A DNA stretch of 64,000 nucleotides from Bacillota bacterium (GTDB lineage Bacteria; Bacillota; UBA4882; UBA8346): positions 1 to 64,000 of the forward strand of contig JAKOTQ010000011.1 of assembly GCA_029776205.1 (NCBI GenBank), written 5' to 3'. Within the stretch, counting starts at the first letter, position 1, and each line of letters starts with the position of its first letter. Below, in pieces: positions 33,737 to 37,091 of the stretch. A model generated the notes under the pieces. That model did no database searches. It was not told the origin of the DNA and was given only the letters and a program-made list of their open reading frames with translations. The position numbers were made by a program, and so were the translations under genes.

Positions 33737-34276
33737 TTAGGGTTTAAACCGAAAACGATCCACCAGCCCGACCGCTTTATCATCGATTCGCTGATAGACG
33801 GCAAAAGAATCCACCCAAAATGAACCGGTAATCCTTTGACGCATCATCTCCGCCTCTTGCTCGGGCTCAACCTTTCCCCAAATATGCAACGAACAATGGG
33901 GAAAAAAAGGATTTATACTGGATGCAAAAGCGATGGAAGAACCCAAAAGCCAGTGATAGATAGTTTCAAAAGGCTCTCGGGGCAAGACTTCAAATACAAA
34001 GATATCCGTTCCGGGAAAACGGGTAACCGATCCCAATCGGGCCTCAAAGGGCTTCAACTGCTTGGCAATACGGGCTAATTCGTCTAAAATAGCTGCTCCA
34101 TCCTGTCCAAAAGCAATGGTCCCGATGCCCGAAGACCCTGCCACTGTTATTTCCACCGGTATATCGTTGGCCAATACCGGATCAAATTTTTCCCGAAGCC
34201 GCTGAACTTGCTCTTTCACAGTGCCTTGGACTTCACACACAATGGCGGAACCCCCCAGTTCCAGACGATCCAACAT
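33737..34276 (-). CDS. 2H phosphoesterase / 2'-5' RNA ligase-like protein (start uncertain)
   Basis: IVCEVQGTVKEQVQRLREKFDPVLANDIPVEITVAGS...FPGTDIFVFEV...NPFFPHCSLHIW. Confidence 0.55.
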   Translation of the reverse strand: MLDRLELGGSAIVCEVQGTVKEQVQRLREKFDPVLANDIPVEITVAGSSGIGTIAFGQDGAAILDELARIAKQLKPFEARLGSVTRFPGTDIFVFEVLPREPFETIYHWLLGSSIAFASSINPFFPHCSLHIWGKVEPEQEAEMMRQRITGSFWVDSFAVYQRIDDKAVGLVDRFRFKP

Positions 34277-34302
34277 CCTCACCAGGCTTTCTTTTTGAAA
34301 AA

Positions 34303-35916
34303 TCAATCCAGCAACGCTCTCAAACGCCCATTCAAAAATTGTGATTCCAAACCGCCTCTTACCTCCGAAGCAAAAGCCTCCCACAAATCCCGGCTTTCAT
34401 TTTCTAAACAAAGTCTTTTATAAGCGGCTACTAACCGAAGCACTGACTTTCCTTGACGCCCTGGCCTTTGTTTTAACAACGGCAACAGAACAGTTGGATA
34501 GACGGGATACTCGAGAATAGCCGGATCCTTCCAATTGGCCAACATTTCAAGTACACCAACGCTCCCTTCCCTTTCTGCCAATATTCCAGATATAACATCC
34601 ATGAAATCCCGATACTGGCCGGCATCCAACAAGATTTGGCCAAGCAAACGCCACATCTTCTTTTCCCGAAGTTCAATCACCAGTCTCCGGTAATAATTCT
34701 GAAAATCATCGGGGAACTTTTCAAGCAATCTTTTAAGTCGTATATACTCCTCAAACTCGCATGTTTCAGTCAATTGAATATAACTCAAAGCTGCAGCCTG
34801 CTTAAACTCTAAACGCCGCCGATGGATCTCGATGAGACGATCGCGAAACATATTACGTTCTTCGCCACTGCACTTAACCAGACTTCTTTTGGCTAAACGA
34901 TAGGCTTCCTCCGGACATTCGGTCATCCAGCGGTCTATCAACCATAACCGGCCTTCGCGAACAGAAAGTAACCGTTCGGTAATGTTCGGCAACCGATGAT
35001 GAAGAGCAGGAATAGCCTCCAAAAGTTCAAAAATGCGAATCCACTGAAGATATCCGTCACAACTTTCCACCGTCGCTAAGATCGTAGAGAACCATTGGGG
35101 ATTTGATTCAATATATTCCCGTAATACCGGTCGAATTTCCTCCCCCAAATCCCAGAGAAGCACATCAAAATAACTGGAGACTAAACTGTCATAAAACAAT
35201 TGAAGCTTTTCTTTTGAAAAAAATCGAAGCAACGAACGTTGTAATTGAAGTTGTTGTACAAGCAGCTCTTTCAATTCAGGAGCCGGCACACTCCGATATG
35301 CATTCAATAACCCTTCCCAAACTTCATTTAGGGGCAAAAGAATCCCGATTTCTCCTTTTTCAATCTCCGACTCAATCACAGGAGTAATCCCCTGTAGACG
35401 TTCCCACAAACTTTCAACATCCGCCAGTTTTAGCTGAGGATATTTAAACAACTGGCGAACAATATTTAAAATCGCCCGACCTGAAACAAAATCGCGCCCT
35501 GACTGTCTCTGACAAAGTTCGAGGAAATCAAAGGGATTCTTGGCAACAAGGTCGTGAGTAATTCGTTCCCGAAGAGTAACATCGTCCATCACCCGGCGGT
35601 ATAAGCTGTCTACCTCTTCAAAGAGAGACCGGTTATTCAGCCATGCATAGCCTAAAGCAGCCAGATGCTTGCAAAAATCGGGATAGGGACAGCTGCACTT
35701 CCAAAGGAGCTTTCCATCCTCCATCCAAAGCAATGCCTTATAAATTCCGCCTCCGCCCCGGAATTTCCCGGCCAATACATTTTCAAAACGGCACGCTTTC
35801 ACTAAGTGCCCCTCGTGATAGTAGACTTGTCCCCGTTGGAAAATCCGAGGCTGACACCAACGAACCAAATCAGCCTGGGAGAAGTTTTCCCAATTCATTC
35901 GTATCGCTCCCAACAA
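34303..35916 (-). CDS. SWIM zinc-finger domain protein (start possibly 35898)
   Basis: YKALLWMEDGKLLWKCSCPYPDFCKHLAALGYAWL (CxCx(n)CxH). Confidence 0.8.
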   Translation of the reverse strand: MLGAIRMNWENFSQADLVRWCQPRIFQRGQVYYHEGHLVKACRFENVLAGKFRGGGGIYKALLWMEDGKLLWKCSCPYPDFCKHLAALGYAWLNNRSLFEEVDSLYRRVMDDVTLRERITHDLVAKNPFDFLELCQRQSGRDFVSGRAILNIVRQLFKYPQLKLADVESLWERLQGITPVIESEIEKGEIGILLPLNEVWEGLLNAYRSVPAPELKELLVQQLQLQRSLLRFFSKEKLQLFYDSLVSSYFDVLLWDLGEEIRPVLREYIESNPQWFSTILATVESCDGYLQWIRIFELLEAIPALHHRLPNITERLLSVREGRLWLIDRWMTECPEEAYRLAKRSLVKCSGEERNMFRDRLIEIHRRRLEFKQAAALSYIQLTETCEFEEYIRLKRLLEKFPDDFQNYYRRLVIELREKKMWRLLGQILLDAGQYRDFMDVISGILAEREGSVGVLEMLANWKDPAILEYPVYPTVLLPLLKQRPGRQGKSVLRLVAAYKRLCLENESRDLWEAFASEVRGGLESQFLNGRLRALLD

Positions 35917-36075
35917 GTTTCCACATTATTCACAAGTTTTCCACAAGAAAGAATGCCTATTTTTCAAAATGTTCCCGAATTCTTCACAAATTCCACAATT
36001 TATCCACAAATTAACCTGTATATAACCGTCCTCTTCATCTCAATGGTTTCCCGACATCCGTCAAAGTTATCCACA
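35917..36075 (+). promoter_or_regulatory. Cluster of DnaA-box-like 9-mers
   Basis: TTATTCACA 35926, TTTTCCACA 35937, TTATCCACA 36000, TTATCCACA 36067 (all fit TTWTNCACA) plus near matches GTTTCCACA 35917, TTCTTCACA 35980, AATTCCACA 35989, all on the same strand. Confidence 0.65.
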
Positions 36076-36077
36076 AT

Positions 36078-37091
36078 TTATAGTTTGAGATTGGGGTCAG
36101 CAGTGATCCGAAGAGAACTTTTGCCCCGGGAATGATAATTATAATACCCCGCGGCAGCAATCATTGCAGCATTATCAGTACATAGCCGCGGACTCGGGTA
36201 GTACAATGCCAGTCCCTCTTTATGGGTTAGCTCCGCACAACGTTGACGTAGCAAAGAATTAGAGGCAACACCGCCGGAGAGCAACACCGCCCGAACCGGA
36301 AATGCCCGAATAGCTTTTTCCAACTGGCGGACCAGCTGATTTACAAGATTGGCCTGAAAACTGGCTGCAACCTGAGGCACATCCACCGGCTCCCCGGTCT
36401 GCTTATGCCGGTGAATCCAGTTGATTACCGCAGTTTTTAATCCACTAAAGGAAAAATGATACGAATCGGGATCTGCCAAACTTTTTACCTGAGGAAACTC
36501 AATATCTGGCTTACCTTCTCTCGCCAGCCGGTCAATGACCGGACCTCCGGGATAGCCCAAACCCAATACCCGGGCAACTTTATCGAAAGCTTCTCCGGCT
36601 GCATCATCCAACGTCCGGCCTAAAATCCTGTACCTTCCCCATGCTTCGATATAAAGCAAATCCGTATGTCCTCCGGATACCGTCAGACACAACAAGGGCG
36701 GTTCAATCTCTGGATGTTCCAGCAAATTTGCATAAATATGACCTTCGATGTGATTTACGCCTACCAGAGGTAATCCCCTGGAGAGAGCCAATCCCTTAGC
36801 AAAGGAGAGCCCGACCAGCAGACTCCCTACCAGGCCGGGCCCATACGTCACAGCTACCAAATCAACCTGATCCAACGTAATACCCGCTTCCTCCATGGCC
36901 CGCCGGTACAACGGCACCAGGCTTTCCAAATGGCAGCGGGCTGCCAGCTCAGGTACTACCCCGCCAAACCTGGCATGCTCATCAAGTTGAGATGATATTT
37001 GATTACTCAGGATTTTCGTACCGTTGGCAACTACTGCCACTGAGGTATCATCACATGATGATTCAATTCCTAATGTAATAAAGTCACTCAT
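36078..37091 (-). CDS. tsaD: tRNA N6-adenosine threonylcarbamoyltransferase
   Basis: LGIESSCDDTSVAVVANG, LVAVTYGPGLVGSLLVGLSFAKGLA, GVNHIEGHIYANLL, VSGGHTDLL. Confidence 0.97.
   Translation of the reverse strand: MSDFITLGIESSCDDTSVAVVANGTKILSNQISSQLDEHARFGGVVPELAARCHLESLVPLYRRAMEEAGITLDQVDLVAVTYGPGLVGSLLVGLSFAKGLALSRGLPLVGVNHIEGHIYANLLEHPEIEPPLLCLTVSGGHTDLLYIEAWGRYRILGRTLDDAAGEAFDKVARVLGLGYPGGPVIDRLAREGKPDIEFPQVKSLADPDSYHFSFSGLKTAVINWIHRHKQTGEPVDVPQVAASFQANLVNQLVRQLEKAIRAFPVRAVLLSGGVASNSLLRQRCAELTHKEGLALYYPSPRLCTDNAAMIAAAGYYNYHSRGKSSLRITADPNLKL

Follow-up and report, generated by a model that had tools for sequence, protein, structure and literature searches.

A phased DnaA-box cluster downstream of tsaD, conserved across Bacillota and a probable counterpart of the Bacillus subtilis gcp/ydiF region

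In Bacillus subtilis, the gcp (= tsaD)/ydiF region is among the eight strongest DnaA-binding regions, with 10 sites, a Kd of 0.15 µM for ATP-DnaA and a 16-fold preference for the ATP form at 55 nM (PMC4447404). Joint deletion of six clusters outside oriC leads to early initiation, which has been read as the loss of DnaA sequestration (PMC5295017, PMC13220808, PMC11019786). The species lacks IHF, Hda, datA and DARS, and no regulator of the DnaA nucleotide state is known there (PMC13220808, PMC5295017). Individually these clusters look weak, and one review grades their role as minor. They were reportedly the subject of Ishikawa 2007 and Okumura 2012, and Smith & Grossman 2015 are said to treat them with gcp/ydiF included. 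The ywlC gene is a Sua5/TsaC homologue. Two of the top extra-oriC DnaA regions of B. subtilis adjoin the t6A genes gcp and ywlC, and a third strong region adjoins trmE (PMC4447404, Table 1).

The locus described here lies in a 64,000-nucleotide stretch of Bacillota DNA (the window), where a gap of about 180 bp (37% GC) separates the stop of tsaD (36078, minus strand) from the likely ATG of a SWIM zinc-finger gene at 35898. The gap holds four boxes matching TTWTNCACA, all on the plus strand, and three degenerate ones (Table 1). A first-pass annotation had placed the four 9-mers at 35926, 35937, 36000 and 36067, with the last two both TTATCCACA, and had noted three near matches, which were found at 35917, 35980 and 35989; all hold at these coordinates. 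The 11-bp pairs that it described, 35926/35937 and 35989/36000, are likewise correct, each forming the last two boxes of a triplet spaced 9 + 11 bp. Triplet D-E-F is offset by exactly 63 bp from A-B-C, and box G follows 67 bp further on. The seven same-strand box columns are kept in most of nine same-family gaps when aligned. Runs of invariant columns in a six-sequence gap alignment fall mostly within boxes, the main run outside them being TGTATATAA at 36017–36025. The minus-strand element at this position, TTATATACA, is missing from both family members whose neighbour is not SWIM, and just four of 99 other cluster loci have it. Given this tie to the SWIM neighbour and its rarity elsewhere, the element is probably a piece of the SWIM promoter (−10-like), or else an inverted weak box, and not part of the cluster.

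Table 1. Boxes, neighbouring genes and multi-box groups of three other genomes; positions refer to the window unless a genome and contig are given
Feature	Position	Strand	Remarks
Box A, GTTTCCACA, degenerate	35917..35925	+	TTCTCCACA in most family members
Box B, TTATTCACA	35926..35934	+	TTWTNCACA match
Box C, TTTTCCACA	35937..35945	+	TTATCCACA in most family members
Box D, TTCTTCACA, degenerate	35980..35988	+	
Box E, AATTCCACA, degenerate	35989..35997	+	
Box F, TTATCCACA	36000..36008	+	TTWTNCACA match
Box G, TTATCCACA	36067..36075	+	abuts tsaD stop codon
TTATATACA element, between boxes F and G	36017..36025	-	6/9 family members
tsaD (gcp/ydiE), gene preceding cluster	36078..37091	-	PF00814 324 bits; TIGR03723 421 bits
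SWIM zinc-finger protein gene	34303..35898	-	PF04434 20.1 bits, cut-off 19.6
Multi-box group	G165:C1 5108857-5108980		loci L273-L276 cover all three genomes (G165, G157, G180)
Multi-box groups	G157:C1 210648-210757 and 2374646-2374951		
Multi-box group	G180:C1 1037658-1037792		

The clustering of these boxes is exceptional, their number in the window is not (8 motifs in 64 kb against 6.1 expected). Dinucleotide-preserving shuffles of the 179-bp gap (n = 20,000) gave at most two TTWTNCACA boxes, compared with the four observed. Poisson expectations across the genome are also low: some 2e-4 for groups of four or more TTNTNCACA within 150 bp, and some 6e-4 for groups of three or more TTATNCACA. 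A pattern search of the 2.73-Mb genome gave, among the matches listed, 75 copies of TTATNCACA versus 23 of the reversed control, and the sole other tight grouping among them was oriC, around dnaA/dnaN (contig C71, 66.6–68.2 kb). Among the matches listed, the tsaD cluster is second only to oriC for clustering in this genome, and the genome-wide count proposed in the first-pass annotation came out beyond chance, with oriC alone comparable.

One genome of the same family (G006; e.g. loci L158–L167) carries TTATCCACA 318 times in 6 Mb, among the matches listed, the reversed control occurring 14 times. The copies lie largely in dispersed intergenic arrays spaced at multiples of 21 bp, with a unit like GCAAGCTCTTTTTGTGGATAA, and many arrays end in a similar flank. 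They could be copies of a scattered repeat with DnaA boxes in it, which might in turn affect DnaA titration.

Conservation was followed at approximately 235 tsaD loci, comprising 60 relatives, 80 named genomes and class samples around a Paenibacillus-like genome (G049) and a Selenomonas-like genome of a Negativicutes-like class (G056), with classes assigned by tsaD similarity. The B. subtilis counterpart was placed from the literature, and the sequence comparison used other Bacilli, named and unnamed. Around and just past the tsaD stop (−30 to 150 bp), the relatives had 9.6 boxes/kb, a density that fell to 3.1/kb at 150–300 bp, 0.44/kb at 300–600 bp and 0.06–0.16/kb elsewhere. Two or more boxes within 600 bp of the stop were present at all 9 own-family loci and at 43 of 58 class and phylum relatives, in line with the spacer conservation that had been suggested as a check. 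The same was found for 38 of 66 Bacilli (46 of 66 counting displaced copies) and for 7 of 34 loci of the G056 class. Mononucleotide shuffles predict 0.3 such loci in 158, and an interval inside tsaD, taken as a control, had none (0 of 158). Paenibacillus-like genomes have the cluster displaced 2.5–3.5 kb downstream of tsaD. A four-box group in a further genome (G041; L282, C1 2138000–2141000) lies 20 kb downstream on the expected strand, with the usual spacings of 88, 44 and 9 bp. It is flanked by genes for a 5-formyl-THF cyclo-ligase and a phage-integrase-like protein, an arrangement that looks like the outcome of an insertion pushing tsaD and its cluster apart.

Several Bacillota lineages have no tsaD cluster, and three genomes (G081, G036, G122) are without it despite an origin-proximal tsaD. 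It is also absent from Lachnospiraceae-type loci, where an IspD-like gene (identified by sequence inspection) usually follows close after tsaD. The 19 named outgroup loci (18 non-Bacillota and one Mollicutes) all lacked a pair of TTWTNCACA boxes after tsaD; under a looser consensus, two boxes were detected at one of these loci only, in a Streptomyces and on the tsaD strand. Where few other clusters exist, the tsaD cluster stands out together with oriC, among the matches listed. Its position downstream of tsaD (gcp) matches that of the B. subtilis member, and intermediate lineages share it. The best reading is that the cluster would be ancestral in Bacillota and usually origin-proximal, and its persistence at one gene in Bacilli and in several further Bacillota lineages, with strand bias and helical phasing, points to long-term selection. 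A search of open-licence full texts found no published account of such phylum-wide conservation at one gene with fixed strand and phasing, and no paper joining tsaD and DnaA boxes; gcp, ydiF and DnaA together gave only PMC4447404.

Both strand and spacing are constrained. Boxes ran antisense to tsaD in 133 of 140 cases among the relatives, 131 of 169 among Bacilli and 24 of 24 in the G056 class. Spacings between same-strand boxes were periodic at 10.8 bp: over 440 pairs R was 0.56, against at most 0.17 in position-jittered controls. Since pairs from one locus, and loci that are related, do not count as independent, the period is given without a p-value. Spacing peaks occurred at 9, 12, 20–22, 42–44, 51–54 and 63–65 bp, most of which are distances within the double triplet. 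A fixed strand and helical phasing are not obviously explained by titration and suggest that a specific complex may form on the boxes.

The window and oriC are on separate, unjoined contigs of the draft genome; 210 kb separate the tsaD cluster from oriC in the same-family genome G006, and we infer a place near the origin for the window's cluster. The distance from tsaD to dnaA had a median of 14% of the chromosome (range 7–27%) in 16 near-complete genomes with the cluster and of 29% in 12 without it (one-sided p = 0.014 over 28 genomes, uncorrected for ancestry and with some genome lengths rounded). Three genomes with a distant, cluster-less tsaD have other multi-box groups approximately 5–15% from dnaA (Table 1), as would be expected if selection acted on having a cluster near the origin and not on tsaD itself, in what is a small, hand-picked set. 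The genes adjoining these groups are unrelated, namely polyphosphate kinase, ferritin, DegS and a mechanosensitive channel.

The gene beyond the cluster changes from family to family, and includes SWIM, radical-SAM activase-like, lgt-like, MurC-like and sensor-like genes, with an ABC-F gene in convergent orientation in Bacilli (all labels but SWIM come from sequence inspection). SWIM is the downstream neighbour in the window's family only, where it follows tsaD in most members, and the cluster is kept at two loci without it (L034 and L038). Because the neighbour changes between families, the cluster follows the 3′ end of tsaD and not one promoter. In the window, the SWIM gene overlaps a 2′-5′ RNA ligase-like (2H phosphoesterase) gene (33737–35898).

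On balance we favour, with moderate confidence, a tsaD-associated Bacillota DnaA-box cluster that is the counterpart of B. subtilis gcp/ydiF and sequesters DnaA from oriC. By analogy with that species, we infer DnaA binding and titration in the window's organism as well. DnaA, probably mainly as ATP-DnaA, would bind the phased same-strand boxes cooperatively and thereby be kept away from oriC. As tsaD is usually located near the origin, such a sink would be copied soon after initiation, which would lower free DnaA just after each start and discourage early re-initiation. Such a site bears on how Firmicutes restrain DnaA without Hda, datA, DARS and SeqA, and it names a single position with a predicted geometry that is testable in any Firmicute.

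Several other explanations were weighed against sequestration. The phased boxes could organise DnaA into an oligomer in which either ATP hydrolysis, as at datA, or nucleotide exchange, as at DARS, is stimulated, instead of merely holding the protein. Strand, spacing and helical phase are fixed across families and suggest a defined complex, and the B. subtilis counterpart strongly prefers ATP-DnaA (PMC4447404), but that species has no IHF, Hda, datA, DARS or known nucleotide-state regulator (PMC13220808, PMC5295017) and same-direction triplets are not the datA/DARS context, so that an active switch of this kind seems unlikely. No less tentative is the broader proposal of an ancestral Bacillota locus where a phased DnaA complex would actively lower DnaA activity, datA-like and separately evolved, kept near the origin and replaced near oriC when tsaD moves. 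Control of expression by DnaA, with the boxes either regulating the SWIM and 2H-phosphoesterase genes or blocking read-through from tsaD, is less probable again. The SWIM gene begins right after the gap, which in six of nine family members carries a candidate −10 (TTATATACA) that is missing from the two without that neighbour; the boxes run antisense to tsaD, the orientation that a roadblock might need, and a search of the gap found no intrinsic terminator. A consensus sigma-70 promoter was looked for in the gap and not found either, however, and the cluster persists beside unrelated or convergent neighbours and lies 2.5–20 kb from tsaD in some lineages, so that a general explanation cannot lie in a SWIM promoter or in read-through. 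Neighbour turnover rules out the promoter role put forward in the first-pass annotation as the main one, and a secondary effect on SWIM in the window's family is possible.

We consider it very improbable that the cluster is a nucleoid or segregation landmark using DnaA boxes, or a site for an unrelated factor with a similar motif, and not a part of initiation control. Position and strand are conserved near the origin and helical phasing would suit any multi-subunit DNA complex, but the motif is the exact DnaA-box consensus of this genome's own oriC, and it is DnaA itself that binds the counterpart in B. subtilis. A secondary or former replication origin, the third role raised for the locus in the first-pass annotation, would explain why one intergenic gap holds several DnaA boxes, yet hardly any credence can be given to it. 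The genome's oriC, with dnaA/dnaN, is on contig C71; GC skew keeps its negative sign throughout the 64 kb without switching at the cluster, and tsaD is on the expected leading strand. The lowest GC per 40 bp is 25% in the gap versus 15–17.5% at oriC, and the B. subtilis clusters are described as inhibitory and the use of a second origin there as unlikely (PMC11019786). Skew, gene context and AT content together led to the rejection of this reading. The earlier remark that no dnaA or dnaN is nearby holds for this contig, and the suggestion to place the site by the skew switch and dnaA gave nothing within the window, which has no switch and from which dnaA is absent. Chance clustering, for which the AT-rich gap (37% GC) might speak, has a negligible probability and is refuted, as none of the 20,000 shuffles reached three boxes and conservation of the cluster extends over the phylum.

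Like a bacterial oriC, the locus is a DnaA-box cluster in an intergenic gap, but it lacks dnaA/dnaN, a skew switch and a strongly AT-rich unwinding region. Escherichia coli DARS1 and DARS2 are also small non-coding groups of DnaA boxes, in a different gene context; they reactivate DnaA, a positive effect involving IHF/Fis at DARS2, whereas the Bacillota clusters are negative according to the B. subtilis data. E. coli datA is closer, by analogy, as a non-coding multi-box locus off oriC that restrains initiation, yet it has another gene context, uses IHF and promotes DnaA-ATP hydrolysis (PMC5295017). Of the datA/DARS-like titration locus first suggested, the titration type therefore stands, given that the positional counterpart in B. 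subtilis binds DnaA, and identity with E. coli datA or DARS proper does not. The window's genome apparently has one extra-oriC cluster, among the matches listed, as opposed to six in B. subtilis, where DnaA binding has been measured at gcp/ydiF. The neighbour is SWIM and the boxes form two 9 + 11 bp triplets 63 bp apart, while the Bacilli version has a convergent ABC-F (YdiF-like) gene beyond. The feature common to the window and gcp/ydiF is a group of several boxes away from oriC, placed directly after the 3′ end of tsaD.
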